Of a DNA stretch of 64,000 nt, positions 5,388 through 25,423 are shown piece by piece. The notes beneath the pieces were generated by a model. That model was not told where the DNA came from. It searched no databases and saw nothing but the letters and a program-made list of their open reading frames with translations. Both the position numbers and the translations under genes were made by a program. Positions within the stretch are counted from its first letter, which is position 1; each line of letters opens with the position of its first letter. The DNA comes from Euzebya rosea (lineage in GTDB: Bacteria; Actinomycetota; Nitriliruptoria; Euzebyales; Euzebyaceae). The stretch is from assembly GCF_003073135.1 (NCBI RefSeq), contig NZ_PGDQ01000010.1, positions 124,001 through 188,000 of the forward strand, read 5' to 3'.

Positions 5388-5447
5388 CCTCGGACGGATC
5401 GGCGGGCCGCGACGCGATCTGCAGACTACTTGGCGTACACGAAATGA

Positions 5448-6302: not shown

Positions 6303-6598
6303 CAGGCCGTGGAGGCGGCGTCGGCGGCAGCGGTGCCGCCCTCGTCCGGGTCGGCCCCGTCGGCCATCGTGGCCTCCAGCGCCGTGATCGCGGCCCTGAC
6401 ACGCGCCGTCCGTTCATCGGCGGAGTCCTCGGCAGAGAGGGTCAGCGCCAGCGCCCACGCGGTCAGCGGGGCGTAGCGCCGTTCGCTGCCGTGGGCCACC
6501 ACCCTGGTCAGGTCGAGCACCGCGGTGCGTTCCTCGGCGGTGATCTCGGGGGTCCCGAGGAGGGCGGCGAGCTGGGCGAAGAACGCGTCGTCGGACAT
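6302..6598 (-). CDS. DUF6457 domain-containing protein
   Basis: A 98-aa small, acidic, mostly helical protein starting MSDDAFFAQLAALLG. An ATG 12 codons further upstream exists, but the shorter start matches the conserved beginning. DUF6457 proteins are commonly found beside molybdenum-cofactor genes in actinobacteria, and here the gene is coupled to fdhD. The biochemical function is unknown. The C-terminal Ala/Gly/Asp-rich tail looks disordered. Confidence 0.7.
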   Translation of the reverse strand: MSDDAFFAQLAALLGTPEITAEERTAVLDLTRVVAHGSERRYAPLTAWALALTLSAEDSADERTARVRAAITALEATMADGADPDEGGTAAADAASTA

Positions 6599-6656
6599 GG
6601 CCCCAAGCCTGACAGCACCCGCCCCCGCTGTCACGAGCGTCCTCTACGCTGCCGAC

Positions 6657-9668: not shown

Positions 9669-9898
9669 GCGTGAACGCGTTGCGCGGGTGGAATCTGCGC
9701 GGGGCCAAGCTGGCCGCATGTCGATGCTGGTGGGTCCGAGCGAGGCACGGACCGGTCCTATCGCGTTGCCATCTTCACGCGGGCTGGAGTCATGGCTGGT
9801 CACTGGGTGGGCGGGCCCGCGGGTACTCGGGCAGGATGTTGAGGTGGGGGGGTAGCTTCGTGGGGGTGGACGGCAGGGAAGGGAGGCCTCACGGAGTG

Positions 9899-10228
9899 GT
9901 GTCCGGGCCTGATATGGGACGGGTGAAGGCCGATGCGGGCGAAGACTTCGCCGAGGCCGGTCCGGACGGCAAGCCCGTCCACCGGCCTTGGTGGTGGGCC
10001 CTCCGGGACTTGGATGATTCGGCGTTGCACGCCCATGTACGCGAGGCCGGGTGGACCCGGGTTGCCGACGACTCCGGCCGGCCTGACTCAGCAGGCGAGG
10101 GTCACTCGCGGCGGGGCCATCTGGTCTTCCCGACCGGGGTGGAGTGCATGTGCTGCAAGTTCAGGTGGCTATTGCGCACCGGTACGGCGCCCAACGTCGT
10201 AGGCCTTGACGCGAATCTCCGGCCATGA
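9899..10228 (+). CDS. Hypothetical protein
   Basis: A 109-aa product if translation starts at one of the paired GTG codons at 9896/9899, about 10 bases after GGGAGG. The frame stays open back to 9671, but that part has non-coding composition. Features are a WWWALRDLDDSALHAHVREAGW helix and a VECMCCKFRW Cys cluster near the end. No family recognised. The 230 bases before it and the 160 bases after it show nothing else. Confidence 0.35.
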   Translation: MSGPDMGRVKADAGEDFAEAGPDGKPVHRPWWWALRDLDDSALHAHVREAGWTRVADDSGRPDSAGEGHSRRGHLVFPTGVECMCCKFRWLLRTGTAPNVVGLDANLRP

Positions 10229-10388
10229 AGGGTCGCATCGCATCGGCTCCCGCTAGCAGGAACGGAGCCCGAGGGCGCACCTGACCACCGGGCCCGCGAT
10301 CGGTCGCAAATCGCGCTTGGGCCCCGTGAAGACCTGCAAGCCCGTCCGATGACTACAGTGGGGGGTGTTGACCGGGACGGGAGGTCGG

Positions 10389-11597
10389 ATGCAGGGAGAG
10401 GACTTCGTCGGCAGGGCCGAGGAACTCGACGCCCTGAAGGGCTTTCTCGCGGACGATGCGCAGGTGCTGGCGGTCCATGGGATCGGCGGCGTGGGGAAGA
10501 GCGCCCTGGTCGGACGGTTCAAGGAGCTGGCCGAGACCACTGGTGTGCGGGTGTCCATGCGCAACGCACCAAACGGGACGATCGGAGTGCCGCGGTTCCT
10601 CAAGGAGGTCAGCGGCGATCTCGGTGAGGGGCACGTCGCCTTCGACCGCCTAAACGCCGAACTGGATGAGTACTTGCGGCGGGAGTCGGTACTCGAGGGT
10701 GGCGGGGGCGCTGCTGGACTGCTTGGCGCGATCGGTCTGGTCAAGGAGCCAACCGGGCTCTCAGCAGCTGCTTCCAGGCTCGGACAGACGTTGGGCGCCC
10801 GCTCCCGGGACCGGCTGGCCGCGGACAGCTACTGGCGCGGAGCACCGGCCAGTCTTGCCGAGGCCTTCGGCGAGGGTTGCGACGGATTGATGCTTGGCAG
10901 GCCGAGCGTGGTCGTCATCGATCGGTGGGAGTACGCCTCCGACTTCGACGTGTTCGCCTGCGAGACGCTGGTCCCGCGCTTGCCGAGGTCGGTCAAGGTC
11001 ATCGTGGCGGGACGTAAGGATCTGGCGATCAGCAACCCGAGATGGCTGTCCGGGAGGATCGGGTTGCATCCAGGGGTCCACGTCGACGAGTTCGCCCCAG
11101 AGGACGCACGGGAGTTCCTTCGTCGCGCGGGATTGGAGGAGGCCAGCCGACAGAACGAGGTGCTGGCCGTCGTTGGCGGGTTCCCGCTGCTGCTGGTCCT
11201 GCTGCGAACGCTCGCGCGGGGACCAGGTGGCTGGGACGCGGTCGGTCCCCTCCAGCCGCGCGACAACAACCAGCTCGCCCGCCTACTACTCGAGCGCATC
11301 CTCGATGCCCCCGGCGGGGAGGAACTCGGGCCGGCACTGGAACTGGGTTGCATTCCGGATCACCTGACCCCGGCACTGGTCGGGGTGGTACTCGAAGTCG
11401 AGGAGCCGGAGGCAGCCCGCATCTACGACCTGCTCGACGACAGCGAGTTGACCGAACCGCATCCATCCGGCATCCGGATCCACGACCGGGTCCGGGAGCT
11501 TCTTCTCGACCGTTTGAAGTTCAACCGGCCCGATGCCTTCCAGGCAGTCTCGGCAAGGGTTGTCGACCACTACCGGCGTCAGGTCCCGCGCCCATGA
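10389..11597 (+). CDS. STAND-type P-loop NTPase
   Basis: A 402-aa NTPase. The ATG at 10389 is chosen over GTG 10365 because a GGAGG lies five bases before it. Motifs: FVGRAEELDAL at the N-terminus, Walker A GIGGVGKS (residues about 31-38), a Walker-B-like VVVIDRWE, sensor IVAGRKDL, and the GGFPLLLVLL (GxP) motif of STAND/AP-ATPases, followed by winged-helix-like sequence. STAND proteins are ATP-switched signal sensors. Its stop overlaps the ATG of the TPR gene (ATGA), so the usual NTPase-TPR fusion is here split into two coupled subunits. No effector domain is fused. Confidence 0.8.
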   Translation: MQGEDFVGRAEELDALKGFLADDAQVLAVHGIGGVGKSALVGRFKELAETTGVRVSMRNAPNGTIGVPRFLKEVSGDLGEGHVAFDRLNAELDEYLRRESVLEGGGGAAGLLGAIGLVKEPTGLSAAASRLGQTLGARSRDRLAADSYWRGAPASLAEAFGEGCDGLMLGRPSVVVIDRWEYASDFDVFACETLVPRLPRSVKVIVAGRKDLAISNPRWLSGRIGLHPGVHVDEFAPEDAREFLRRAGLEEASRQNEVLAVVGGFPLLLVLLRTLARGPGGWDAVGPLQPRDNNQLARLLLERILDAPGGEELGPALELGCIPDHLTPALVGVVLEVEEPEAARIYDLLDDSELTEPHPSGIRIHDRVRELLLDRLKFNRPDAFQAVSARVVDHYRRQVPRP

Positions 11598-12559
11598 ATC
11601 TGGACCCGATCATCGGGCTGGTCACAGCCTTGACCCAGATGGACGATGACATCGGCGCGGCGTCGGAGTTGACCGACTTCATCGAGGATCTTCGAGCCTC
11701 CGGCGATCTCGCGTCCGCTCGACGACTGGTCAACGACGTCAAGGACGCACCGTGGGACGAGCGTCTCAGGGGAGTGGTCACCTACGCCGCTGGCTATCTG
11801 GCCGACCTCGACGGCAAGCCGTCTGAGGCGATGACGCACTTCCGTGCCTCACGACGACACTTCGCGGCGGTCGGCCTGAGAGACCTTGAAGCCGTGGCGC
11901 TGTTCCAGATCGGAGCGCTGCATCGGGAGTCGGGCGATCTAGCGGCGGCGTCCGCTTCGCTCGCAGAGGCTATTGGGGTTGCCGAAGGCGAACTCGTCCG
12001 AGCCCGCGCAAGTCACAACCACGTACACGTCCTTCACCAGATGGGGGAGCAACAACTGGCGATCTCGCTGCAGGAGGAATGCCTGCGGACGTTCGACCGT
12101 CACGACGACCACGTCAACGCTGCCTCGGCACGCCTCAGCCTCGGCGTCATGTTGACCGAGGAGCAGCGCTTCGACGAGGCACTCGGTCCCCTCTTGTCCG
12201 CAGCGGTGTCGTTCGCCGCCCTGCCGAACGACATCGGCGGGGGCCAAGCCAGCAGCCTCGCCGTGCTCGCCCAGATCGTGGCGAGGACAGGCGACCATGC
12301 CAACGCCATCCTCGTCCTTGACCGCTGCGCGGCTCTGTTCCTTGATGCCGGCCTGGTGGTCCGCGCTGCCACGGTGATGCTCGACATGGGCAAGATCTGC
12401 TTCGGCGCCGATGATCACGAAGCCGCGCGACTTCAGCTCGATGCTTCCGAGCGCGGCTTTGCTTCGGTGGAGGATGCCCGTGGAGTTGCCGCGGTCCGCG
12501 CGCTACGCAATCTGCTCCGCGAACCCGATGGGGACGGCGACTCTCCCAAGTTCGAGTGA
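11594..12559 (+). CDS. TPR-repeat protein, partner of the STAND NTPase
   Basis: A 321-aa all-helical protein with about six to seven tetratricopeptide-like repeats from residue 50 to the end (for example AVALFQIGALHRESGDLAAASASLAEAI). TPRs usually form the sensor or scaffold half of STAND proteins. The start at 11594 overlaps the NTPase stop, making a two-gene translational unit. The signal sensed is unknown. Confidence 0.75.
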   Translation: MNLDPIIGLVTALTQMDDDIGAASELTDFIEDLRASGDLASARRLVNDVKDAPWDERLRGVVTYAAGYLADLDGKPSEAMTHFRASRRHFAAVGLRDLEAVALFQIGALHRESGDLAAASASLAEAIGVAEGELVRARASHNHVHVLHQMGEQQLAISLQEECLRTFDRHDDHVNAASARLSLGVMLTEEQRFDEALGPLLSAAVSFAALPNDIGGGQASSLAVLAQIVARTGDHANAILVLDRCAALFLDAGLVVRAATVMLDMGKICFGADDHEAARLQLDASERGFASVEDARGVAAVRALRNLLREPDGDGDSPKFE

Positions 12560-14480: not shown

Positions 14481-14864
14481 TCAGCCGGGTGTTCGTGCCA
14501 TCGCGATCGCCCCGGCCATCGGTCGGACATGCGTGAGCGAGATCGTGACGAGCACACCCAGCGAACGGGCCCGGCGTGCGACCTCGCCGTGTAATGCGAC
14601 GGCTGTGTCCGGGCCGCCTCCGACGACCTCCACGTCAAGGGGTTCCAGGCCCGGCATCCCTAGGCACTTGTGGACGGCCTCCTTGGCCGCCAGACGCGCG
14701 GCCAGGCATTGACCGGGATCCGGTTCGCCACGGCTGTAGGCGACCTCGCCGGCATGGAACAACTCTTCCAGCAGTCGTGGGTTGCGCTTCAGCTTCTCGG
14801 CCAATCGGTCCGGCTCAACGAGGTCGATCCCCACGTACGGCACTGTCGGCAATTCCTGCATCAT
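14481..14864 (-). CDS. acpS: Holo-ACP synthase (4'-phosphopantetheinyl transferase, AcpS type)
   Basis: A 127-aa AcpS-type enzyme that transfers phosphopantetheine from CoA to the serine of an acyl carrier protein. Visible family motifs are VGIDLVEPDRL (Mg-binding Asp region), FHAGEVAYSR, the ARLAAKEAVHKCLG helix and the C-terminal ISLTHVRPMAGAIAMA. The gene diverges from an ACP gene with only 53 bases between, so this is most likely a dedicated modifying enzyme for that carrier. The AT-rich spacer (reads TATAGGATAATCAAGC before the ATG) suggests a -10 box so close that the mRNA could be leaderless. Confidence 0.88.
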   Translation of the reverse strand: MMQELPTVPYVGIDLVEPDRLAEKLKRNPRLLEELFHAGEVAYSRGEPDPGQCLAARLAAKEAVHKCLGMPGLEPLDVEVVGGGPDTAVALHGEVARRARSLGVLVTISLTHVRPMAGAIAMARTPG

Positions 14865-14917
14865 GCTTGATTATCCTATACGATGTCGACTATTCCGACA
14901 CACTGGAGGTCCCCGTG
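14865..14917. promoter_or_regulatory. Divergent AT-rich promoter between acpS and the ACP operon
   Basis: These 53 bases are among the most AT-rich of the island. They include TTATCCTATACGATG (plus strand), whose complement offers TANNNT-type -10 boxes towards acpS. GGAGG lies 8 bases before the ACP start at 14918. The XRE-family regulator encoded two genes downstream is the obvious candidate to bind here, by analogy with other XRE/ImmA pairs. Confidence 0.5.
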
Positions 14918-15205
14918 ATGCCAACCGCGAGCCCCGCCGCCCCTCCCGCCACATGGACCCCGACGGCCCTGCAGGCCGTGGTCCTGGATCTGCTTGCAGA
15001 ACTCCTGATGGAGGACCGCGAGGAGTTGGAGCAACGGCTCTCAGTGACCCCTGCCATGCCCGTGGACTCCTTGGACATGATGGATATTATCGCCGGGTTC
15101 AAGCAGCGGACGGGCCTGTCGGTCCACAAGGGCCGCCTCCGCAGGCACCACATGCGGTCGGTCAGCGCGTTTGTCGGGTTCGTCAGCAGCCGGTCCGGCA
15201 CGTGA
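14918..15205 (+). CDS. Acyl carrier protein
   Basis: A 95-aa single-domain carrier protein. After a Pro/Ala-rich 12-residue lead, the domain contains the phosphopantetheine site VDSLDMMDII with Ser51, and a preceding four-helix-type segment. The last 30 residues are unusually basic (HKGRLRRHHMRSVSAF), unlike acidic fatty-acid ACPs. First gene of a seven-gene operon; GGAGG precedes the ATG, and the stop overlaps the next start (GTGA). It probably carries an acyl or aminoacyl group as a thioester for the enzymes downstream; the cargo is unknown. Confidence 0.82.
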   Translation: MPTASPAAPPATWTPTALQAVVLDLLAELLMEDREELEQRLSVTPAMPVDSLDMMDIIAGFKQRTGLSVHKGRLRRHHMRSVSAFVGFVSSRSGT

Positions 15206-15573
15206 CCGGCACCGACGACGGGACGCCTGATGAGGCGGCAGCCCTAGCACGACGCCTGAAGCAGGCTCGTGAGTTCCTCAACCTGTCCCAGCAGTTCGTG
15301 GCCGAGCAGACCGGAATCAGCCGGACCGCCGTGTCCGACATCGAACGCGGCGCACGTCGCGTGGAGAGCCTGGAGCTGAAGCGCCTCGCGCGGCTGTACC
15401 GGATGCCGGTCGACTACTTCCTCGGCGGCGGATCGGTCGAGGGCGCCGCCGAGGCGACCAGCACGGCGCTCGCCCGCGCAGCGGGCGATCTGGACGAGGA
15501 GGCGCAGGAGGAAGTCATCCGCTTCGCGCTGTTTCTCAGGAACTACCGGACCCCAGGGGAGGGCGGCTCGTGA
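15202..15573 (+). CDS. XRE-family transcriptional regulator
   Basis: A 123-aa protein with an N-terminal HTH_XRE domain (ARRLKQAREFLNLSQQFVAEQTGISRTAVSDIERGARRVESLELKRLARLYRMP, split over residues about 14-68) and a C-terminal helical tail. GTG at 15202 overlaps the ACP stop; its own stop overlaps the ImmA gene start (GTGA). In elements such as ICEBs1 an XRE repressor (ImmR) is cleaved by the adjacent ImmA peptidase; the same pairing is inferred here. Confidence 0.88.
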   Translation: MTGTDDGTPDEAAALARRLKQAREFLNLSQQFVAEQTGISRTAVSDIERGARRVESLELKRLARLYRMPVDYFLGGGSVEGAAEATSTALARAAGDLDEEAQEEVIRFALFLRNYRTPGEGGS

Positions 15574-16586
15574 CGACCTGGGAGGAGGCCAACCGCAGGG
15601 CCGGTGTCATGGCTGGGGAATGGCACGCCGAACTCGGCATCGACCTGTCCCGCCCGGTCGACCCGTTCGATGCCATCCGCCGTCTCGGCATCATCCTGGC
15701 CTTCGGCAGGCTCGGAAGGACGTCCGGCCTGTACCTTCCGGCGGGACCGGCTCAACCCCAGCCGGGGATCCTGCTCCACGTCGGGCACCCTCGCACACGG
15801 CAACGCTACTCCGCGGCGCACGAGCTCGGCCACCACGTGTTCGGGCACGCAATGGGAGTCGACGGCGACCTCGAACGGGCCCGCCGGAAGGAAACGGGCT
15901 GGACGACTGAGGAGAAGGAGGCCGAAGCGTTCGGCGCATGGTTCCTGATGCCCCGTCGGCTCGTGAGAACGGGGCTGCGCACCCTCGGCATCGACACCCC
16001 GAGGGATCCGTTGGACGTCTATGCGCTGTCGCTGTGGTTGGGGACCAGCTACACCGCCACCGCCCACCAGCTCGCAACCGTGCGGATCGTCGGTCGTGAC
16101 GACGCGTCGAGGTGGGCCACAGTCCCACCCCGCACCATCAAGCGCACGATCGCCGGGACGATGGTGCCCGACATCATGCGAAACGACGTCCTGTGGGTCG
16201 ACGTGCGACGGGCGGCTCACGAGGTCAGCGGGCGGCCAGGGGACAGGATCGTGGTAACCGTCGACGACGTGCCTAGCAGCGGGATCACTTGGAGGGTCGC
16301 CGAACGATCGGTGTTGCCCCTGGCGGCGGACTCCTTCATGGATGACTGGGATGCCGACATCCACCTCGTCCACGACGACGGTGAACTGGCCGGCGGGACC
16401 TATCCGCGGTCCTTCGCACTCGACGTCCCCCCTGGCATCGGGGTGGGCCCGCACCCGCTTGAGCTGATCCGCGACCGGCCCTTCGACGAAAGCGAACCCG
16501 TTGAACGCGTCAGGATTCCCGTGACGATCGATCCCGGTCTGAGCGGCCTACAGCTCCCCGAGGCTGCAATGGCCATGCACTCCTGA
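15570..16586 (+). CDS. ImmA/IrrE-family metallopeptidase fused to a chagasin-like cysteine-protease inhibitor domain
   Basis: A 338-aa two-domain protein. The N-terminal domain is an ImmA/IrrE zinc peptidase with AAHELGHHVFGH (HELGH at 84-88) and the downstream EAEAFGAWFLMP block. Residues about 205-320 look like a chagasin (inhibitor family I42) beta-sandwich: an NPTTGYxW-like loop PSSGITW (235-241), a GG loop (275-276) and an RPW-like loop RPF (303-305), in the right order. Chagasins block papain-family peptidases, and the next gene, one base downstream, encodes one. The fold assignment of the second domain is by motif order, not by search. Confidence 0.8.
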   Translation: MTTWEEANRRAGVMAGEWHAELGIDLSRPVDPFDAIRRLGIILAFGRLGRTSGLYLPAGPAQPQPGILLHVGHPRTRQRYSAAHELGHHVFGHAMGVDGDLERARRKETGWTTEEKEAEAFGAWFLMPRRLVRTGLRTLGIDTPRDPLDVYALSLWLGTSYTATAHQLATVRIVGRDDASRWATVPPRTIKRTIAGTMVPDIMRNDVLWVDVRRAAHEVSGRPGDRIVVTVDDVPSSGITWRVAERSVLPLAADSFMDDWDADIHLVHDDGELAGGTYPRSFALDVPPGIGVGPHPLELIRDRPFDESEPVERVRIPVTIDPGLSGLQLPEAAMAMHS

Positions 16587-16587
16587 C

Positions 16588-17202
16588 ATGGACCACCGAT
16601 CAGCACAGACACCGGTCCGCGACCAAGGGTCCCGGCCGACGTGCGTCGGGTTCGCCGTGGCTGCGGCCCATGAATGGCATTCGGGTGCGGACCAGGTCAT
16701 GTCGCCTGAGGACGTGATGTGGGCGGGCCACCAGATCGGAGGGATCCCTGGCCGCGAGGACATCAGCGTCCAGTGGGCCCTGGAAGGACTCGACGTCCAC
16801 GACCTCACCACGGAGCACGCGTGGCCGTACGGACGCCCCACCTGGCAGCACGGACGACCGCACGAGGCCCGTGACCCCGCCAACCGGGCCTCGGTCCCGG
16901 AATGGCGTCGCGCCGCCCCCTGCGACTTCGGCACCGTCGCCGACAGCGCGACCGATGGCAAGCCCGTCATCCTCACCCTCCGTCTCGTCCCCGCCGCCTG
17001 GTACACCGACGGGCCTGTGGACGCCCCTGCGGGCCTGAGGACGTTCGGCAGTCACGCCGTCCTCGTTGTCGGCACCCAGGCGAAGTCGCTGGTGGTCAAG
17101 AACTCCTGGGGCGACGGCTGGCAGACCGGCGGCTACGGCCTCGTCACCCGCGAGTACGTCGACGCCTATGGCGTCGTGGCACACACCCTGTTTGGAGCCT
17201 GA
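16588..17202 (+). CDS. Papain-like cysteine peptidase (family C1), cytoplasmic
   Basis: A 204-aa protease with the full papain catalytic set: Gln13 (oxyanion) and Cys19 in VRDQGSRPTCVGFA, His156 in GSHAVLVVG, and Asn172 in VKNSWGDGW. It has no signal peptide and no propeptide (Cys19 is near the start), so it would be active on folding unless inhibited. The chagasin-like domain encoded directly upstream is the likely inhibitor. Two bases separate its stop from the thymidylate-synthase-like gene. The substrate may be an operon protein or a host target; a transpeptidase-type role is an alternative. Confidence 0.85.
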   Translation: MDHRSAQTPVRDQGSRPTCVGFAVAAAHEWHSGADQVMSPEDVMWAGHQIGGIPGREDISVQWALEGLDVHDLTTEHAWPYGRPTWQHGRPHEARDPANRASVPEWRRAAPCDFGTVADSATDGKPVILTLRLVPAAWYTDGPVDAPAGLRTFGSHAVLVVGTQAKSLVVKNSWGDGWQTGGYGLVTREYVDAYGVVAHTLFGA

Positions 17203-17204
17203 TC

Positions 17205-17978
17205 ATGACCGACCGCTACCTCGAGGCCGACAACGTCTCCACCGGCTGGCTGGCCGCCACCAGGCTGCTCGCGTCATCCGGCAACCCTTGGAAGCACGTT
17301 CACCTCATCCTTCGAATCGCCGACCCGACGGCCGAGACACCCGAGATCCGCACGGCGGCCCAGGACCTCATCGACACCGTCAACCGGCGGCGATCGGAGC
17401 AGGACCACCTGCCACACATCGACACGACCCGCAACACCATCTTCCCGGTGGCCTTCACCGGACGCACCGACGGCCCCGAGGACCTCGCGGCCTACTACCG
17501 CGACCGGTACAGAGATATTCAGCGGTACAGAGGGAACCGGCTCGGCACGTACTTCGGTCGGATCGTGGCGTATCCCACACCCGGTGGTAAGTCGATTGAC
17601 CAGCTCTCCAACACCGTGGAGAAGCTCCGCTCATCCATCACCAAGAACCAGAACAGGACGTCCCGGTACGAGATCGCGATCTACGCGCCGGGCAGGGACC
17701 GCAATATGTGGATGAGTTTCCCCTGTCTGGCCCACGTGTCGCTGCACTACCACGCGGGGCGGTTGCACATGCAGGCCATCTACCGCAACGAATCGCTGGT
17801 CCCGCGGGCCTACGGCAACTACCTCGGGCTCGGTCAGCTGCTGGCCTACATCGCCGACCACTCCGGCGCCGAGGTGGGGGAGCTCCTGATGACGCTCGGG
17901 CATGTCGAGATGGGCGTCAACATCACGCCGGTCCGCGAGATGCTGAGGGGTCTAGCCGACCCTCCCGAAGCGGCCTGA
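17205..17978 (+). CDS. Thymidylate-synthase-superfamily protein (possible dUMP hydroxymethylase)
   Basis: A 257-aa ThyA-fold protein. Counting from the active cysteine (Cys174, in SFPCLAHVSL), Arg194 follows at +20 and Asn205 at +31, the same spacing as Cys146, Arg166 and Asn177 in E. coli ThyA. The N-terminal segments NTIFPVAF and NRLGTYFGRI also match. Asn205 indicates a uracil rather than cytosine base. The residues after Cys (Leu for His) and the RSxD motif (RNES) differ, so the reaction is probably not plain dTMP synthesis. Family relatives hydroxymethylate dUMP or dCMP in phages. Next gene: an HMUDK_hel-like protein. Confidence 0.78.
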   Translation: MTDRYLEADNVSTGWLAATRLLASSGNPWKHVHLILRIADPTAETPEIRTAAQDLIDTVNRRRSEQDHLPHIDTTRNTIFPVAFTGRTDGPEDLAAYYRDRYRDIQRYRGNRLGTYFGRIVAYPTPGGKSIDQLSNTVEKLRSSITKNQNRTSRYEIAIYAPGRDRNMWMSFPCLAHVSLHYHAGRLHMQAIYRNESLVPRAYGNYLGLGQLLAYIADHSGAEVGELLMTLGHVEMGVNITPVREMLRGLADPPEAA

Positions 17979-18030
17979 CTGCCCGGGTCGCCAGCGGCAC
18001 GCCATCGCAGGGTTGTGGAATGCTCCTGTC

Positions 18031-19056
18031 ATGGAGCCCACCCCGCGACCCGACGTTTACGACACCTACTGGCGGTTCGCCGCGGAACGCCAGCGGATCT
18101 TCATGCAGCGCACGTACGGCCGTCCAGGCCCCTGGACCGACGATCCGATCCTCACCGAGTACAAGTTCTGCAACACCTTCAGGGCGTCCGACCGCGTCTC
18201 GCAGTACCTCATCCGCGATGTTATCCACGGCGAACGAGGCCGCGGGTTGCCCGCGGAGGACGTGTTCCTCCGCATCGTTCTGTTCCGTCTCTTCTCCAAG
18301 GAACGGACATGGCAGCGGTTGGAGGAGGCCACGGGCGGCGTGCGGCGGAGCACCCTGGACACCGCCCTCCTGGGTGAGGTCCTGGACCGCACCCGCCGCG
18401 ACGGTGCCATCTACACCTCGGCGTTCATCCTCTGCGCCCACGACGCCTACGGCCACTCCTCCAAGCACCGCAACCACCTCGAGCTCGTGCAGCGCATGTT
18501 CGCGCCCGGCGGCCTCGGGGGAAGGCTCGCACGGGCCCGCGACCTCGGAGAGGTCGTCGCGCGGCTGGCGGAATGGCCGATGATCGGACCGTTCATGAGC
18601 TACCAACTGGCGGTGGACCTGAACTACAGCGGCGAGCTCGACTTCGACGAGGACGACTACACCGTCGCCGGCCCCGGTGCCGTCCGAGGCCTGAACAAGG
18701 TCTTCGCCGACTTCGGGTCATATACGCCCTCCCAGCTGATCATGCGGATGGTCGACCGTCAGGAGGAGGAGTTCGACCGCCTCGGTCTGACGTTCGGCGG
18801 ACTGTTCGGCCGTCGACTCCACGCCATCGACTGCCAGGGTCTGTTCTGCGAAACCGACAAGTACTCCCGCGCCGCGTTCCCGGACCTGAAGAGCAACCGC
18901 GTCCGCATCAAGCAGCGCTACACCCGCAGCGGACCGCTCGAACCGCCTTTCTACCCGCCGAAGTGGGGCCTCAACGACAAGCTCCCCGCACCTGCCGACG
19001 GGTCACCCGCCGGGGTGCAGACCCCCTTGTTCACGACCGAACCGGTCCCGGTGTGA
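18031..19056 (+). CDS. HMUDK_hel / aGPT-PPlase-like DNA-base hypermodification protein
   Basis: A 341-aa all-helical protein matching, by remembered consensus, the family called 5-hmdU DNA kinase helical domain (HMUDK_hel) or alpha-glutamyl/putrescinyl-thymine pyrophosphorylase. Key block near the N-terminus: YWRFAAERQRIFMQRTYG, then PWTDDPILTEYKFCN, then RASDRVSQYLIRDVI. Further on are FMSYQLAVDLNYS (residues about 190-202) and a late GLFCETDKYSR. In phages such proteins act on 5-hydroxymethyluracil in DNA when building hypermodified thymines. No P-loop kinase domain is fused. It follows the ThyA-like gene after 52 bases, a pairing that supports a base-modification role. Confidence 0.75.
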   Translation: MEPTPRPDVYDTYWRFAAERQRIFMQRTYGRPGPWTDDPILTEYKFCNTFRASDRVSQYLIRDVIHGERGRGLPAEDVFLRIVLFRLFSKERTWQRLEEATGGVRRSTLDTALLGEVLDRTRRDGAIYTSAFILCAHDAYGHSSKHRNHLELVQRMFAPGGLGGRLARARDLGEVVARLAEWPMIGPFMSYQLAVDLNYSGELDFDEDDYTVAGPGAVRGLNKVFADFGSYTPSQLIMRMVDRQEEEFDRLGLTFGGLFGRRLHAIDCQGLFCETDKYSRAAFPDLKSNRVRIKQRYTRSGPLEPPFYPPKWGLNDKLPAPADGSPAGVQTPLFTTEPVPV

Positions 19057-19114
19057 CGCCCTCCCCGTCCCACCGCACTGCCCGCTACCCCACCACAGCC
19101 GCGGCGATGTCTGA

Positions 19115-20077
19115 GTGGACGGCGTGACCGGGTTCTCCGCGGAGCTCTGCCGGCGGACCCTCGAACGAGCGGCGGCCTTCGAAGAGGACCAGCGGATCGC
19201 CGTCCTCGGTGCGACACCGGCCGGCCGCGCGGTGACCGCCGCCCTTGTCCGGGTCGGCCTCGGCGACCTTGTCACGGGACTGTTCGACGACGAAGGGATC
19301 GCGGTGACGTCGATGGCCGACCTGCCAGGGGCGGCACCGACCCTGCTGGTGATCGCCCACGACGACGCCAAGGAGGCCTGGCTCCTGCGGGCCCGGGACC
19401 TGCTCGACGGCCAACGCCCACCCCCGGACGTCGTCATCGCCGGGACCGGCCATCTCGCCTTCAACGACGAACGGTACGCCCGGCTCGACGCCCCGGCCCT
19501 CGTCCCGTCCTACGCGACCGGATCACCGCACACACGCCACCACATCTACAACTGCCTGACCGCAGCCGCCACCGCGGGGTTGGACGGCGCGATCGTTGAG
19601 TTCGGAGCATTCAAAGGCGGCACCACCGCATGGATGGCCCGCGTCGCATCGGATCTGGGCATCGACGGGCCCGTGATCGGATTCGACACCTGGGACGGCT
19701 TCCCCGCCCGACGGTCCTTGCTGGACCTGTACGAACACCCGCGCTGCGTGTTCGGAGACCTTGACGCCGTCAGGGCCTACACCGCACCGTACGGTGTCGA
19801 GCTCGTCGCCGGTGACATCACCGAGACCTTCCACAGGTTGGCCGGCATGCCATTGCTGCTGTCGTTCTTCGACACCGACAACTACAGCCCGGCACGCGCC
19901 GCCCTGGAACTCTGTGCCGATCAGACCGTCGTGGGCGGCTCGATCGTGTTAGACCACGTCGCGACCCTTCCCGATTACGTCGACACCGTCGGGGAAAGAA
20001 TCGCCGCGGCCGAGGTCCTCGACGACAGACCGTTCCTGCACCTGCACGACACCGGGGTCTACACGCGGATCCGCTGA
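19115..20077 (+). CDS. TylF/MycF-type SAM-dependent methyltransferase
   Basis: A 320-aa protein (GTG 19115; GTG 19124 is possible; no good ribosome binding site). Residues 1-130 are a Rossmann-like region (QRIAVLGATPAGRAVTAALV). The C-terminal part is the TylF-type methyltransferase: GAIVEFGAFKGGTTAWMARVA (SAM-binding loop), VIGFDTWDGFPARRS, and the metal-site-like SFFDTDNYSPARAALE. TylF relatives O-methylate sugars in antibiotics. In this operon it may methylate the group added to the nucleotide or the ACP cargo. Its stop lies five bases from the convergent MazG gene. Confidence 0.82.
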   Translation: MDGVTGFSAELCRRTLERAAAFEEDQRIAVLGATPAGRAVTAALVRVGLGDLVTGLFDDEGIAVTSMADLPGAAPTLLVIAHDDAKEAWLLRARDLLDGQRPPPDVVIAGTGHLAFNDERYARLDAPALVPSYATGSPHTRHHIYNCLTAAATAGLDGAIVEFGAFKGGTTAWMARVASDLGIDGPVIGFDTWDGFPARRSLLDLYEHPRCVFGDLDAVRAYTAPYGVELVAGDITETFHRLAGMPLLLSFFDTDNYSPARAALELCADQTVVGGSIVLDHVATLPDYVDTVGERIAAAEVLDDRPFLHLHDTGVYTRIR

Positions 20078-20082
20078 CCCGG

Positions 20083-20955
20083 TCAGGCAGACGAGTACTC
20101 GATCGTCCCGATCTGCAGATCCAGCCTGAGGACCCCCCCGTGACCGTCGCGCAACGCACGCCAGATCTCGAAGGACCGCAGAATCGCCCGCTCCCACTGG
20201 GACGCCGTCCTGTCCCGGACCTCCAAGCCGGCCGTCAGCCGACGGATGGTCGTGAGCAGGGAGAAATCGACGTGCTCGACGTCCGCCAGATAGCCGACGT
20301 CGGCGGCGTAGTCGAACGCGAACGCCGCGATCGCCTCCTCGATCACCATGGCCCGTCCAGCGTCCTCCACCTCCCTGACGTACGGGACGCTGTCACGCCG
20401 CCGATTGAGGAACCGTCGCACCACGGGTGACCATCCCAGGAGGGCGGCATAGGTGAAGTGGAACGCGTCGTGATACCGATAGCCGTCGTTAGCATACGAG
20501 TTGTCGGTCAGCCGGTCCCCGAGCTGCCGGCCCCCCTCGAAGGCCCGGACCTCGACCTTGCCGTCATCCGCCAGTGTCTCCTCGAAGCGGACCTCCAACC
20601 GCCTGGGCAGCTGCTCCTCCACCGGGTATGCCTCGTCCAACAGCGGGGGCTGGCTGGTCTGGGTGGGCCAACGCCCCGCGACCTTGTGTAGGTTTGCCAA
20701 CGCGATCTTGTCCATCGACAGGCCAAGCTTGCTCGCGACGTTGGCGCAGTACCAAAGGATGTCGCCGATCTCGTCGGCCATCTCGCTTGCGAACAACTCG
20801 TAGGCGTCTCCGTCACGGAGCCACTTCTTCACATGGCGGGTAAGGGAACCGACCTCCGAAGCCAACCCGACGATCGGGAAGAGCACTGCGGTCGTGTCCT
20901 CTCCGGGGCGCTGGTCGGTCGCCACCGCCCTCGTCTGGTACTCGCTCAACTCCAT
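20083..20955 (-). CDS. MazG-like nucleoside triphosphate pyrophosphohydrolase with C-terminal extension
   Basis: A 290-aa protein (ATG 20955 after AGGAGG). The first 105 residues form a MazG-type helical NTP-PPase: LFPIVGLASEVGSLTRHVKKWLRD and EMADEIGDILWYCANVASKLGL supply the paired EExxE/ExxD-like acidic residues. The remaining 185 residues are a helical, His/Asp-containing domain (YRYHDAFHFTYAALLGWSPVV) seen in larger MazG-like proteins of unknown role. MazG enzymes remove the pyrophosphate from unwanted NTPs or dNTPs. Converging on the modification operon, it could clear unmodified or modified dNTPs. Confidence 0.78.
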   Translation of the reverse strand: MELSEYQTRAVATDQRPGEDTTAVLFPIVGLASEVGSLTRHVKKWLRDGDAYELFASEMADEIGDILWYCANVASKLGLSMDKIALANLHKVAGRWPTQTSQPPLLDEAYPVEEQLPRRLEVRFEETLADDGKVEVRAFEGGRQLGDRLTDNSYANDGYRYHDAFHFTYAALLGWSPVVRRFLNRRRDSVPYVREVEDAGRAMVIEEAIAAFAFDYAADVGYLADVEHVDFSLLTTIRRLTAGLEVRDRTASQWERAILRSFEIWRALRDGHGGVLRLDLQIGTIEYSSA

Positions 20956-21263
20956 TGCGTCCTCCTGATCGCGATGATGGTTCGGTCGAAGACACACCGG
21001 GCGACGGTTCTTGGTTGCGGCAGGTGACGACCTCTAGGTGTACCTCCCAGCGAGGTTGTTGACGCGCGACCGGCACCAAGGGCTGGCTGAGCTGACGGGT
21101 GGAGCCCGTGACCCGTTTCATGGACAAACGGATACTCAAAGACCACTGGCCGCCCCGGGAAGACGATCCTCCCCGGGCTGTCACACCCACGCACTAGCGT
21201 TAATAACGTCATTCAAGTTAGTGGTGGCCCCAACCGACACCCAACTCAGCCAAGGACACACCC
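20956..21263. promoter_or_regulatory. Divergent regulatory region between MazG-like gene and recombinase
   Basis: No gene is seen in these 308 bases. The right part contains the CCCGGG-based inverted repeat at about 21154-21177, then CTAGTGCGTGGGTGTGAC (read on the minus strand, 21180-21197) abutting the CGTTAATAACG motif at 21198-21208, then AAGGA before the recombinase ATG. It could hold promoters for both genes and, as a region next to an integrase gene, could also contain an attachment site. Confidence 0.5.
21198..21208. promoter_or_regulatory. Palindromic motif CGTTAATAACG, copy 3
   Basis: The motif sits 55 bases before the recombinase ATG, close to the 56-base spacing of copy 1 from its gene. 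The 18 bases at 21180-21197, read on the minus strand, match 13802-13819 beside copy 2 at 16 of 18 positions (CTAGYGCGTGGGTGYGAC), so copies 2 and 3 share more than the 11-mer. Confidence 0.6.
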
Positions 21264-23186
21264 ATGCACGACGACGATCATCACCTCGACCCCTCGCGCC
21301 TGCGGGCACCCGACGACCTTTCCGGGCTCGTCGACCTCGAAGCCGTGCCGACGCCCCTGTTCGACCTGAAGCCGACACCCTGCTCGACCGCCGGGTGTGA
21401 GGGGACGACCACCTCAACCGGGGGGCTGTGCGGTCCCTGCCTCAACGCGGCAACCGAGGCCCGCCAGACCAGCCCAAGTCCGCGCCTGTCCCGTCCCCCC
21501 GGACGGCTTGGGCTCGACGAACTCCTCGCTCGCAGCGCCGCCCTGGCTGGTCGCGTCACCGAGGACGCCGAACCGGAGATGCGCAACCACGCCCGCGATC
21601 TCCAGGAGTTCTGCCGGGAGACGGGTGCCGGGACGCGTCTGGACGACATCGACGTGTGGGTCCTGACCGACCTCGCGGAGATCCGTGCCTACGCACTGGA
21701 CCTCCTGGACCGCTACGGACTACCCCTCCCCGAACCCAACGGCCCCACGCCGAACGTGGACATCGACGACCGGATCAACCGGGGCACCTGGGACCGTCGG
21801 TTCCACCTGCTCGACCGCTGGCACATGCGCCACAACGTCGCGCCCCCCTGGCGGACGCTCGCCGAACACCCCTCCGGCGGACTGTTCGTCAGGGACCTGC
21901 GGGCCGCATACCTCAAGGCCCACAGCGGACAGGCCCGCGACCCCCTCGAACTCGACGTCCTCTTTCGCCTGCTGATCGGCCTCGGACGTCCCGACCCCCA
22001 CCAGCTGAATACCGCCGCACTGATCGCTGCGGCGACACACCCCGACGTCGCGTTGGACGGCACACGTGTCGCCGACGGCGCACGGATCCCACTCAACCTC
22101 TGGCGCGACCTGGAGGTCCACCAGGTCCGCGATGACGGCGTCACGATCCGTGCGACGGTCCGCTCCAACCGGCTTATCCGCGAGGTCCTCGTCCCGCCCG
22201 GGCCCGCGGCCCACGTGCGGGCCCTGCTCGACCTTCGACGAGGCGGCGCGACGGAAGGGCCGTTGTTCCGCAACGCCAACGGGCAGCCGTTCGGTCCCAA
22301 CGGCGTCCCCACATCCCTGCGGAACGCCATCGCCACCCACGGCCACTCCCTCCCGGACTGGCAGGCGGGCAGGGGCATCATCCGGATGCCGAAGCCGGGT
22401 GAGGGCGAGGTCCTCATCGATCGGGTCCTCCGACTCCCCGACGAGGCCCTCCGCGATGCCGCATGGCTCGCCAACGCCTTCTGGACCGCCTCTAGGGGCG
22501 GGGAGACACTGAACCGGACCGTTCGCGACGCCGTACCGAGCGCCGCCGGCATCCTCTGGCGGCTGCCCCGCAAGCCCGACAAGGTCGGCCGCCGCACCCC
22601 TTACCTCGCACCCCACCTCCGCTGGCGCGAGGTGGATCCCGCCAACCTGCTGCTCCGCTGGCGTGGCCGGCTTGCCGCCCTCTGGCGAGGTCAGGGACAC
22701 GACCCCGGCCGGTTCGGTCCCGACTGCCGGCTGTTCCCCACCGACCTGAACGACGTTGTCGCCGTCCCCGCCGACGTCATCCGCCGTTTCAACCGCAGGG
22801 TCGCCGGCTACCAGACGCGCTTCGCGTTCCTGCCCGACTACCTCAACCTGGGCACCCATTCCCTGCGGTCCGGACTCGTGACCAGCGGTCGGACCCTGGG
22901 GATCCCTGACCCCTCACTGATGCAGCAGGGCGGATGGCACGACGTCACGGTGTTCCACAGCTACTTCGCCACGATCCGGCCCGGTTCGGCGAGCCATGCG
23001 ACCACGCTGATGGTCGCCGCCTTCGACCCCGCTGCACCGGTCACCGGCGGCCTCGGCGAACGGATCGCAGGGATTCTTGCGGGCCTGGACGACACCTGCG
23101 GCTGCCTGGTCTGCACCGAGTTGACCTACCCGGTGGCTGACATCGAGGAGGTCATCAGGTCCAACGGGTTGGACCGACCCCACTGA
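21264..23186 (+). CDS. Tyrosine recombinase/integrase-like protein with N-terminal zinc ribbon
   Basis: A 640-aa protein. A short Cys cluster near residues 40-60 (CSTAGC...CGPC) suggests a zinc ribbon. The middle is helical and fits core-binding domains. The C-terminal part carries tyrosine-recombinase signatures: an Arg in FWTASRGGETLNR, THSLRSGLVTSG (HxxR-type), GGWHDVTVFHSYF with the presumed nucleophile Tyr and the W/H position before it. It is larger and more diverged than classical phage integrases. Expected to cut and rejoin DNA at specific sites, perhaps mobilising this island. AAGGA precedes the ATG. Confidence 0.72.
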   Translation: MHDDDHHLDPSRLRAPDDLSGLVDLEAVPTPLFDLKPTPCSTAGCEGTTTSTGGLCGPCLNAATEARQTSPSPRLSRPPGRLGLDELLARSAALAGRVTEDAEPEMRNHARDLQEFCRETGAGTRLDDIDVWVLTDLAEIRAYALDLLDRYGLPLPEPNGPTPNVDIDDRINRGTWDRRFHLLDRWHMRHNVAPPWRTLAEHPSGGLFVRDLRAAYLKAHSGQARDPLELDVLFRLLIGLGRPDPHQLNTAALIAAATHPDVALDGTRVADGARIPLNLWRDLEVHQVRDDGVTIRATVRSNRLIREVLVPPGPAAHVRALLDLRRGGATEGPLFRNANGQPFGPNGVPTSLRNAIATHGHSLPDWQAGRGIIRMPKPGEGEVLIDRVLRLPDEALRDAAWLANAFWTASRGGETLNRTVRDAVPSAAGILWRLPRKPDKVGRRTPYLAPHLRWREVDPANLLLRWRGRLAALWRGQGHDPGRFGPDCRLFPTDLNDVVAVPADVIRRFNRRVAGYQTRFAFLPDYLNLGTHSLRSGLVTSGRTLGIPDPSLMQQGGWHDVTVFHSYFATIRPGSASHATTLMVAAFDPAAPVTGGLGERIAGILAGLDDTCGCLVCTELTYPVADIEEVIRSNGLDRPH

Positions 23187-23360: not shown

Positions 23361-24173
23361 TCATGGCGCGGTTCTCCTGCTGTGCGAGCAGAAGTCGGTG
23401 CTCCAGGCCAGGTGTCTGCCGTCCTGTCGTGCGATCAGGATCGTCACCTGCCGGCTGGATCGATAGCCGGAGCCGACGATCTCGTGGTCGACGGCCGACT
23501 CGGCACAGCGGGCACTGAACTCGATCGGGACCTCGCGATCCACCGGCAACGCCGACAGCTGCGCCTGGGACTCAAGGCCGACGCAGAGTTCGTCGAGCTG
23601 ATCTCGTCGCATGCCCACCACCCCGCGTGGCCGGCCGAAGGCCGGTGACAGGAACCGCCACAGGCGGACGGGCCGCCCCACACGTCGGAGGCGGACGGCA
23701 ACGGCGGAGAGGGTCACGCGGTACGCCCTTGCCATTGCCTGGAAGTCTCCGATCGACAACGCGTCGCGGCGGGCCAGGGCCCGCATGTCGTCGGTCGGCA
23801 ACAACATCGCTCCCGCGACGGCGTCGCACAGTCGCTCCAGGTCCCACCCACCCGCCGGAAGCGTGGAGCCGTGGACGCGGGCCCGCTCGACCAGGACGTG
23901 GCCGAGTTCGTGAGCGAACGTGAATCGCAGGCGGGATTCGCTTGCCAGTTCTTCCCTCAGGTACACCACCGGTAGCCCCTCCTCCCAGCGGGTGAGACCT
24001 CGCCAGGCCTGCGATGCCGGCGCCTGACGCACTCGGACCCGAAGCTCACGGGCCACTGCGTCCAGATCCACAGCTCTTGGTGCCCCCCCGAGGGTCGGAC
24101 GGTGGAGGCCGGCAAGCAGTTCGTCGGCTCGTCGGGCTGTGGACACCGACCATGGGCGGCCTCTACCGGCCAC
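23361..24173 (-). CDS. ImmA/IrrE-family metallopeptidase
   Basis: A 270-aa zinc peptidase with HELGH at residues 88-92 (RFTFAHELGHVLVERA) and the third-ligand region LCDAVAGAMLLP. The C-terminal 100 residues form an extra domain, different from the chagasin-like domain of the other ImmA protein in this island. GTG at 24173 overlaps the end of the upstream gene by 11 bases, so the two are a unit. The upstream protein is the natural candidate for its cleavage target or regulator. Confidence 0.85.
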   Translation of the reverse strand: MAGRGRPWSVSTARRADELLAGLHRPTLGGAPRAVDLDAVARELRVRVRQAPASQAWRGLTRWEEGLPVVYLREELASESRLRFTFAHELGHVLVERARVHGSTLPAGGWDLERLCDAVAGAMLLPTDDMRALARRDALSIGDFQAMARAYRVTLSAVAVRLRRVGRPVRLWRFLSPAFGRPRGVVGMRRDQLDELCVGLESQAQLSALPVDREVPIEFSARCAESAVDHEIVGSGYRSSRQVTILIARQDGRHLAWSTDFCSHSRRTAP

Positions 24174-25377
24174 GCAGGATCTCCTCGTGGAGATTGGCCC
24201 AGTCCGCTGTGCTCACCAGCATCAGGTGCTGTGCGGCCTCCCCGGTGACCAAGCCGAGGCCCAGACGGGCGGCACGTTCGAGCATCTGCGCCCGGATCGG
24301 CTGGGGGACCGGCTCGGCCGCGCAGTAGCTGTCGAAGGTCGAGCGCGCCGGGTCGGGGAGCAGTGAGGCGAGGGGGGTGGGCGCGATCGTGCTGTCAGGA
24401 TGCAACTGGATCCCTAGGAGGACCTCGAGTGCTCGCAGCTGTTCAGCGGTCAGCGAGGCGAGTGCCAGTGGGTGCACGGCGGCGACGGTTGCCTGCTCCC
24501 GGGTCAGCGGCAGGCTGTCGGGCCACTCGGCATCGCCTCCTCGCAGGGACAGCGCGCGGCCGAGCGCGTCTGCAGGCCCCTGCCACACCCGGCGCTTCGA
24601 AGCGCGCCGGTTCGCGGTCAGGACCAGACGCTGCCTGAGCTGGTGGAGGCGCTCGCCGAGCAGCCTGGGAAGTTCGGGCGGTGCGTCGTAGACGAGCGGT
24701 GGGAGGGTGGCGCCAACCTTGGGGTTCGCGTACAGGTAGGACAGCGGCCCGACGTGCTGTCGGACGATGGGCAGGATCAGGGCGCCGATGCCGCGCAGCC
24801 GCTGGACCTGGGCTCCGACGCCCTGGGACCCTGGCACGACGAAGACCGCGACGAGGTCGGCCTCCCACGTGATGTCGCACCCGGAGTGGTCCTCGTGCAA
24901 CGGGTGGCCCACGATGTCGAGCCATTCCAGCCGGGTGTTGGACACCAGGTCGCTGATGTAGTCCTCCACGATCCGGCGCTCCTCGCCGGCCTGGTTGGTG
25001 TCGGCCTGGGCGAACAGCGCCCTCGGCCGCACCGCCGTCGGCGAGACCGCCTCCCACAGCGTCAGCTGTCCGGCGCGCCCCGACGGCCGTTCGTCGTCAT
25101 CGGACTGTTCGACCGCGGACATGTCGAACGGCAGGTCGTGTTCCCGACAGAACACTTGGGCAACCCCGAGGGCGAGCTCATCCGTTCGCGGTCCGGCCCC
25201 CATGGCTTCGACCAAGCCGCGAACCACCAGTTGGACGTAGTCGCGTGCGCCGATCTCCCGCCCCTCCAGGGGATGCGCCACCCTCCGCACCCGATCCGGG
25301 CGAAGGTTGTGGGCAAAGCCGACCTCGTCGGCGACCCAGGCGGCGGTCCGCTCCGTCCACCCAGGTTCAACGATCAT
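24163..25377 (-). CDS. Hypothetical protein, partner of ImmA/IrrE peptidase
   Basis: A 404-aa soluble protein. ATG at 25377 is preferred because the 13 codons before it run into an operator-like repeat array. The N-terminal 100 residues are helical and may bind DNA (TERTAAWVADEVGFAHNLRPDRVRRVAHPL), though no standard HTH is certain. The centre includes ILPIVRQHVGPLSYLYANPKVG. No family recognised. In other ImmA/IrrE systems the adjacent gene encodes the cleaved repressor, so a regulatory role is inferred. Confidence 0.55.
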   Translation of the reverse strand: MIVEPGWTERTAAWVADEVGFAHNLRPDRVRRVAHPLEGREIGARDYVQLVVRGLVEAMGAGPRTDELALGVAQVFCREHDLPFDMSAVEQSDDDERPSGRAGQLTLWEAVSPTAVRPRALFAQADTNQAGEERRIVEDYISDLVSNTRLEWLDIVGHPLHEDHSGCDITWEADLVAVFVVPGSQGVGAQVQRLRGIGALILPIVRQHVGPLSYLYANPKVGATLPPLVYDAPPELPRLLGERLHQLRQRLVLTANRRASKRRVWQGPADALGRALSLRGGDAEWPDSLPLTREQATVAAVHPLALASLTAEQLRALEVLLGIQLHPDSTIAPTPLASLLPDPARSTFDSYCAAEPVPQPIRAQMLERAARLGLGLVTGEAAQHLMLVSTADWANLHEEILRGR

Positions 25378-25392
25378 GACCCACAGCAAACC

Positions 25393-25423
25393 ATGTGCGT
25401 ACGATGTGCGCAACATGTGCGTA
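25393..25423. repeat. Three 11-bp-phased direct repeats (operator-like)
   Basis: ATGTGCGTA, ATGTGCGCA and ATGTGCGTA start at 25393, 25404 and 25415, an exact 11-base spacing that places each copy on the same face of the helix. They lie 16-46 bases before the start codon of the 404-aa gene and upstream of the divergent RHH gene, a classic arrangement for cooperative repressor binding. Confidence 0.65.

Follow-up and report, generated by a model that had tools for sequence, protein, structure and literature searches.

A 64,000-nucleotide (nt) stretch of the Euzebya rosea genome (contig NZ_PGDQ01000010.1; hereafter the window, to whose positions the coordinates in Table 1 refer) contains a tight set of nine genes that, as judged from gene content and order in other genomes, represents a real, rare, and mobile cassette. 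On balance, we favor the reading that this cassette is inducible, both produces a C5-modified pyrimidine nucleotide or DNA base and processes it, and most likely hinders phages or other mobile DNA. Its core consists of an acyl carrier protein (ACP), an XRE-family protein, an ImmA-type peptidase, and a thymidylate synthase (TS)–like protein, plus either an HMUDK_hel protein or a member of the uracil-DNA glycosylase (UDG) family. An earlier note, made from the letters of this DNA alone, had described a single tight operon with genes of these and related families. All nine genes were confirmed at their positions, and their families were upheld in Pfam, NCBIfam, PHROGs, and PADLOC scans.

The cassette recurs in distant phyla

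The locus set comprised 25 cassette copies; one of them (L073) is clipped by a contig end, which leaves 24 intact loci. The core was found in 24 of the 25 loci, ranging over Actinomycetota, Alpha- and Betaproteobacteria, Cyanobacteriota, Thermodesulfobacteriota, and Haloarchaea, often on plasmids. A scan for HMUDK_hel, with one genome per species, gave 12 loci. The nearest relative, in a metagenome-assembled genome of an actinomycete (L002), has the nine genes in identical arrangement, and L003, L009, L011, and L012 carry subsets of them around the XRE, ImmA, TS-like, and HMUDK_hel genes. When plasmids were searched by tblastn with the TS-like protein, 19 records matched, 11 of which are typed as conjugative; the matches come from Streptomyces, several Alphaproteobacteria, Burkholderia, cyanobacteria, and one haloarchaeon. 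The plasmid records inspected have the gene order of the window, as does a Sinorhizobium plasmid reached through HMUDK_hel.

A search that did not depend on HMUDK_hel was made with a profile of the TS-like protein in ~400 Actinomycetota genomes, ~400 Pseudomonadota genomes, and ~300 from the phylum to which L009 belongs. Matches of 180 bits or more were defined as strong, the next class lying at ~60 bits. Seven new strong matches were obtained. XRE and ImmA genes adjoin all seven, with HMUDK_hel (six cases) or UDG (one case) adjacent or close to the TS-like gene; in L067, the distance to HMUDK_hel is ~1.7 kb. Two same-genus genomes in this sample gave no match, and the cassette was present in ~1% of the sampled genomes. 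Since the gene order recurs in distant phyla and all seven unbiased matches carry the expected neighbors, the association is more than chance. The earlier note had set two tests beforehand. One was co-occurrence in other genomes, and homologues do recur together across phyla; the other was the fold of the proteins encoded at 17.2 and 18.0 kb, which turned out to be a TS fold and an HMUDK_hel protein (302 bits), so the proposal was not refuted. The specific TS-like protein had no match in 50,697 phage records, and single-protein scans of IMG/VR viral contigs found no relatives of the cassette HMUDK_hel or TS-like proteins.

Accessory genes are AcpS (also present in L002, L003, L011, L022, and L083), TylF, C1 peptidase, dCTP deaminase, thymidylate kinase, and radical SAM. 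TylF, which the earlier note included in its proposed system and which L002 has as well, is not a core gene. MazG-MazG_C is frequent and occurs in both the HMUDK_hel and the UDG subtypes; L003, L011, L019, and L022 have instead a small protein that is MazG-like by eye. In none of the 12 cassette MazG copies aligned is the second glutamate of the first ExxE motif present, and the metal site may therefore differ from that of classical MazG.

A TS fold without the folate site, and a carrier protein

An AlphaFold model of the TS-like protein [six sequences; mean predicted local distance difference test (pLDDT) score of 80] has a TS fold, with Foldseek E-values down to 4e-9 and VIA Z-scores of 13 to 16 against TS structures. 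The closest solved structures are those of the CMP 5-hydroxymethylase MilA (Z = 16.4) and the phage dCMP hydroxylase AfhB (Z = 16.0), aligned over ~195 residues with 17 to 18% identity, followed by ordinary TS. The Pfam match of the window protein (Table 1) is to be read against the Thymidylat_synt cut-off of 24 bits.

Using E. coli ThyA numbering, we compared the 25 cassette copies with seven TS-family proteins that adjoin HMUDK_hel genes or are phage-borne. Cys146, Asn177, and Tyr94 are each kept in 25/25 copies. In contrast, Asp169, His207, Tyr209, and Arg21 are kept in none of them and Glu58 in only one; Gly173 is replaced by Lys or Arg throughout (25/25), and the position of the C-terminal tail that contacts folate is empty in 23/25. 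All seven comparison proteins, including the TS of phage Epa5, keep Asp169, His207, Tyr209, and Arg21. Because the alignment of the N-terminal third is unsure, the statements on Arg21 and Glu58 are weaker than those on the region from Cys146 to Tyr209. By established TS chemistry, Cys146, Asn177, and Tyr94 suffice for formation of the adduct between cysteine and C6 and for activation of C5, while the lost residues bind folate and the sugar-phosphate of dUMP. Judged by its residue pattern, this enzyme is something other than an ordinary 5-hydroxymethyl-dUMP synthase. Of the ThyA-like hydroxymethylation proposed previously, the TS fold and the residues for C5 chemistry thus stand, whereas the ligands of folate and of the dUMP sugar are lost in all 25 copies.

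The ACP gene is present in all 24 intact loci, L083 to L085 among them. Wherever sequence was available, the gene directly before XRE encodes a small protein whose motif is D-S-L/M/V/K, or N-S-K in L022. The exception is L003, in which the ACP gene (6304-6606), found by profile, overlaps the TS-like gene. In an alignment of 20 copies, the serine is the one fully invariant residue (20/20) and the preceding aspartate is kept in 19/20; the family profile matches ACPs of known structure (E = 1e-9). We infer that the ACP carries phosphopantetheine on this conserved serine and is armed by AcpS. Occurrence of the ACP in both subtypes makes the TS-like protein or MazG_C a more probable partner than HMUDK_hel.

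The loss of the folate site, the probable partners of the ACP, and the ACP/TS-like gene overlap in L003 together raise a tentative idea, which we consider rather unlikely as it stands: that the TS-like protein is a folate-free C5-alkylase or acylase and that the C5 group is delivered by the phosphopantetheine arm of the ACP, docked at the position that folate occupies in ThyA. In that case, C5 of the substrate, a uracil-type nucleotide or uracil within DNA, would be activated through the usual Cys-C6 adduct. To our knowledge, no member of the TS superfamily depends on a carrier protein, and we know of no ACP partner of MilA or AfhB. The TS fold does tolerate a change of cofactor, as the AfhB-related entry 9iqc is titled flavin-dependent.

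HMUDK_hel and its exchange for UDG

The best structural match of the HMUDK_hel model (mean pLDDT of 80.6) is 8z2n, the 5-phosphomethyl-deoxyuridine (5-PmdU) glycinyltransferase PUGT of phage PaMx11 (Z = 11.2). The matches (Z-scores of 7 to 11) also include the DUF2419 queuosine salvage enzyme and the helix-hairpin-helix (HhH) DNA glycosylases AGOG and Ogg, and the motif P-x-I-G-P-F-x-x-Y-Q resembles an HhH hairpin. The modeled evidence for an HhH DNA-glycosylase fold, and hence for presumed action on a DNA base, is good but not decisive, because helical folds easily reach middling Z-scores and the best Foldseek E-value is 7e-3. At the sequence level, HMUDK_hel and the probable PUGT of phage Epa5 show no significant similarity; the link is structure-based. 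A P-loop motif is absent from the HMUDK_hel protein and from the rest of the window operon. Phage Epa5 encodes the P-loop kinase (GTSGSGKST) in an open reading frame (ORF) of its own, which precedes the HMUDK_hel ORF; the Pfam name should therefore not be taken to mean kinase activity. The family assignment made in the earlier note holds, but the protein has no P-loop and is modeled with an HhH DNA-glycosylase fold. In some copies, a thymidylate kinase lies beside HMUDK_hel or is fused to it: the protein of L075 [4075-5778 (-)] has an N-terminal thymidylate kinase, and that of L076 [9879-11042 (+)] retains only its P-loop start.

The slot 3′ of the TS-like gene is occupied either by HMUDK_hel, as in the window, or by a UDG-family protein with a conserved H-P-S motif. 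On the TS-like tree, the difference corresponds to one or two changes. L019 groups with the UDG copies on a long branch, and its HMUDK_hel gene is ~3.7 kb away on the opposite strand. The exchange suggests that both proteins act on the same modified base, and, on the gene content of these loci, it is an addition to the gene set of the earlier note.

In L072 [9471-11792 (-)], the two pieces of a split UDG gene are separated by ~1.4 kb, as would result from an intervening insertion, and on an Acinetobacter plasmid [L023, 7222-8929 (+)], HMUDK_hel and dCTP deaminase are each split into two ORFs. HMUDK_hel also occurs in other settings. L004, L005, L006 (7.4-11.1 kb), and L008 have another operon that encodes a TS fusion of ~530 amino acids, TylF, and HMUDK_hel; it has no ACP or XRE-ImmA operon, and Nmad2 and ThsB-like TIR genes are nearby. 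In L086, L088, and L089, HMUDK_hel lies beside TIR proteins, a phospholipase of the type found in the cyclic oligonucleotide-based antiphage signaling system (CBASS), and MazG (Gloeothece plasmid), or beside radical SAM (Parabacteroides plasmid). TS-family proteins of 489 to 628 amino acids are encoded in L074, L077, and L078, in each case followed by a HAD-like gene; the L074 copy has a PterinBD-DUF4346 domain.

Conserved operators and a proposed proteolytic switch

Palindromes were found upstream of ACP in 19 of the 24 intact loci, compared to 0.009 expected per locus (~0.01 per 203 bp, ~1%) from the remainder of the same loci. One class, a 17-bp TGTCGG...CCGACA, is present in 13 loci, including the window; the other, a 15-bp GTAAGAT...TCTTAC, is present in six and confined to one branch of the TS-like tree. 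In PADLOC, ImmA matched CapP (52 bits, E = 1.2e-14) and XRE matched CapH (E = 2.9e-9), and the zinc motif of ImmA is invariant among the cassette copies aligned. Given the operators, the XRE gene, and the resemblance to CapH/CapP, the simplest reading is an autorepressed, inducible operon that would be opened by a proteolytic switch.

The loops of the chagasin-like I42 domain, G-Y-x-W and R-P-W, are clear in relatives of the window protein. The domain occurs on ImmA where a C1 peptidase gene follows and is lacking elsewhere. Among the 12 loci that carry the C1 peptidase, the first loop is present in all 12 and the second in 11, while none of the 13 loci that lack the peptidase has both; in the ImmA protein of L003, GYRW represents the first loop and R-P-W is missing. 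Fisher's test gives a P value of 2.8e-5, which overstates independence: on the tree, only two or so independent changes are needed, so the result should be read as consistent covariation rather than as large-sample statistics. By this pattern of occurrence, the proteases and the inhibitor are a regulatory module separable from the chemistry. Control by XRE and proteases, as proposed in the earlier note, agrees with such a module, which has conserved operators but stands apart from base modification.

Layout of the window operon

The features of the window operon are listed in Table 1. The ACP/XRE and XRE/ImmA gene pairs overlap by 4 nt, and the next two gaps, through the TS-like gene, are 1 to 2 nt; gaps of 52 and then 58 nt follow, and the convergent MazG gene is separated by 5 nt. 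Taken singly, three assignments are the weakest, namely the I42 tail at 14 bits, the ACP at 17 bits, and the TS-like protein at 28 bits; relatives make all three firm. The active-site motifs of the C1 peptidase with Gln, Cys, His, and Asn are present as judged by eye. The host genome has a second AcpS gene, on contig C6. It also carries ThyX, and the TS-like gene of the cassette is its sole PF00303 gene, which makes a housekeeping role unlikely.

Table 1. Genes and candidate operator of the cassette in the Euzebya rosea window.
Feature	Position	Strand	Evidence
AcpS, 4′-phosphopantetheinyl transferase, divergent from operon	14481..14864	-	Pfam ACPS, 38 bits
Candidate XRE operator TGTCGACTATTCCGACA, AcpS-ACP intergenic promoter region	14884..14900		Same-class palindromes in relatives
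Acyl carrier protein, predicted phosphopantetheine Ser51 in P-V-D-S-L	14918..15205	+	PP-binding, 17 bits (under cut-off); family profile
XRE-family repressor	15202..15573	+	Pfam HTH_3, 47 bits; weakly CapH-like
ImmA/IrrE metallopeptidase (HELGHH) with C-terminal chagasin-like I42	15570..16586	+	Peptidase_M78, 41 bits; Inhibitor_I42, 14 bits (under cut-off)
Papain-like C1 peptidase	16588..17202	+	Pfam Peptidase_C1, 32 bits; papain/cathepsin matches in PDB
TS-like enzyme	17205..17978	+	Pfam PF00303 Thymidylat_synt, 28 bits; TS-fold model
HMUDK_hel protein, HhH DNA-glycosylase-like fold	18031..19056	+	Pfam, 302 bits; structure model
TylF/Methyltransf_24 S-adenosylmethionine-dependent O-methyltransferase, accessory	19115..20077	+	Pfam, 28-34 bits
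MazG + MazG_C domain, convergent	20083..20997	-	Pfam MazG_C, 222 bits

Directly past MazG, the window encodes a 640–amino acid protein [21264-23186 (+)] with a tyrosine recombinase–like C-terminal pattern by eye and no Pfam match; an annotated site-specific integrase of similar size is likewise located past MazG in the B. glumae cassette (L021). Upstream of the cassette [10365-12559 (+)], the gene for an AAA_16/NB-ARC-like STAND ATPase precedes one for a TPR protein. Farther downstream are a second ImmA/IrrE peptidase gene overlapping that of a 417–amino acid protein with no Pfam match [23361-25416 (-)] and, ~9 kb from the cassette, a GT4-conflict glycosyltransferase [30374-32068 (-); PF20706, 314 bits] of a family named for conflict systems.

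Discussion

In the mechanism we propose, XRE would repress the operon until it is cleaved by ImmA, whose trigger, as has been proposed for CapP, would be DNA damage or infection; this cleavage would turn the operon on. AcpS would arm the ACP, the TS-like enzyme would modify a uracil-type nucleotide at C5 with a group that either has one carbon or comes from the ACP, and MazG would remove competing nucleotides. HMUDK_hel, or UDG in its place, would act on the modified base in DNA and decorate or excise it. In the branch of the window, TylF would cap a hydroxyl, and the chagasin domain of ImmA would hold the C1 peptidase in check. Enzymes of dU and dC nucleotides, the TS-like protein, MazG, the thymidylate kinase of some copies, and proteins with a DNA-glycosylase fold all point to a C5-modified pyrimidine that is acted on in DNA. 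The theme of nucleotide or DNA-base modification in the earlier note agrees with the TS-like, HMUDK_hel/UDG, MazG, and dCTP deaminase partners.

Defense is favored by the inducible control, the mobility of the cassette, its defense-gene neighbors (Dsr2 near L068, LmuA/B near L022, and AbiE adjoining L071), and reports on related domains. According to the main text of the DefensePredictor study (PMC13092281), TS and 5-hydroxymethyldeoxyuridine (5-hmdU)–kinase domains are validated as anti-phage in E. coli, and aGPT-PPlase/MazG/MazG-C is predicted to be defensive. Several points weigh on the other side. The defense neighbors were chosen by eye and concern few loci; the TS-like tree accounts for the UDG and HMUDK_hel copies with no more than one or two exchanges; and the window operon has no obvious gene for loading the ACP. 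Loss of the phosphate and ribose contacts makes a uracil-type nucleotide a less certain substrate of the TS-like protein. Product, substrate, and phenotype are predicted, and the role in defense is probable. Distant DNA searches of E. coli genomes found no match to three cassette copies, so the E. coli systems of that study may differ from the cassette.

Phages M6 and ViI hypermodify thymidine, and if the cassette did likewise to shield its own element or host DNA from restriction, the residence of many copies on conjugative plasmids would be expected, as would the joint presence of HMUDK_hel and TS genes in an M6-like phage and, with glycosyltransferases, in LuckyBarnes. Such self-protection is unlikely, however, since the operon looks repressed and inducible, the UDG that replaces HMUDK_hel in one branch would bring about excision instead of protection, the phage records contained no match to the specific TS-like protein, and the window operon lacks a P-loop kinase. 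It is less probable still that the modified nucleotide serves as a signal sensed by an effector, as in nucleotide-centered conflict systems. Although HMUDK_hel genes do lie elsewhere beside TIR proteins, a CBASS-type phospholipase, Nmad2, and ThsB-TIR, those loci are devoid of the ACP-XRE-ImmA-TS-like core, and the cassette encodes no recurrent effector.

TylF methyltransferases and carrier proteins are known from natural-product pathways, and MilA, the solved structure nearest to the TS-like model, belongs to mildiomycin biosynthesis. Yet no recurrent transporter, resistance gene, or assembly line was seen among the neighbors, and a single core spans archaea, cyanobacteria, and proteobacteria under phage repressor–like control; a nucleoside natural-product pathway is thus very improbable. 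We give least credence to a toxin-antitoxin–like addiction module that stabilizes plasmids. XRE-ImmA pairs, plasmid residence, and a small autoregulated operon would suit it, but several conserved folds for nucleotide and DNA-base chemistry would be excessive, and some copies have a dedicated AcpS.

The favored reading, an inducible base-modifying cassette directed against phages or other mobile DNA, has partial counterparts. Phage thymidine hypermodification (Pseudomonas M6/PaMx11-like and Salmonella ViI) shares TS-family enzymes and HMUDK_hel homologues with it, among them Vi01_130c (279 bits) and an ORF of the M6-like Epa5. Epa5 differs from the cassette in that it encodes its P-loop kinase separately, along with a folate-type TS, a flavoprotein, and a probable transferase, and lacks ACP-XRE-ImmA; the TS of the cassette has no folate site, and the window operon no P-loop kinase. 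CapH/CapP of CBASS resemble the cassette in combining an XRE repressor with an ImmA-type peptidase, but a chagasin-like ImmA tail paired with a C1 peptidase distinguishes one set of cassettes. The nucleotide-modification defense systems that are anti-phage in E. coli (PMC13092281) comprise the same domain families in bacterial genomes, whereas ACP, AcpS, C1 peptidase, and I42 are unmentioned in the main text of that study. In the literature searched, we found no description of an ACP-XRE-ImmA-TS core with exchangeable HMUDK_hel/UDG, although earlier computational surveys might mention one. Nucleotide-modification conflict systems are thus already known as a kind, while this core appears undescribed. 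The statement in the earlier note that no system with the full set had been described was to that extent right, but it was overstated, given the TS and 5-hmdU-kinase domains in the anti-phage systems reported in the main text of PMC13092281.

The cassette links carrier proteins, TS chemistry, and inducible mobile conflict systems, which were not linked before in the literature searched. If the ACP feeds the TS-like enzyme, a route to new C5-modified DNA bases would open, the enzyme would be the first carrier protein–dependent member of the TS superfamily known to us, and cellular genomes would have DNA-base hypermodification of a new kind. Should the cassette stop phages, it would offer a testable biochemical mechanism for the TS and 5-hmdU-kinase domains that are defensive yet unexplained.

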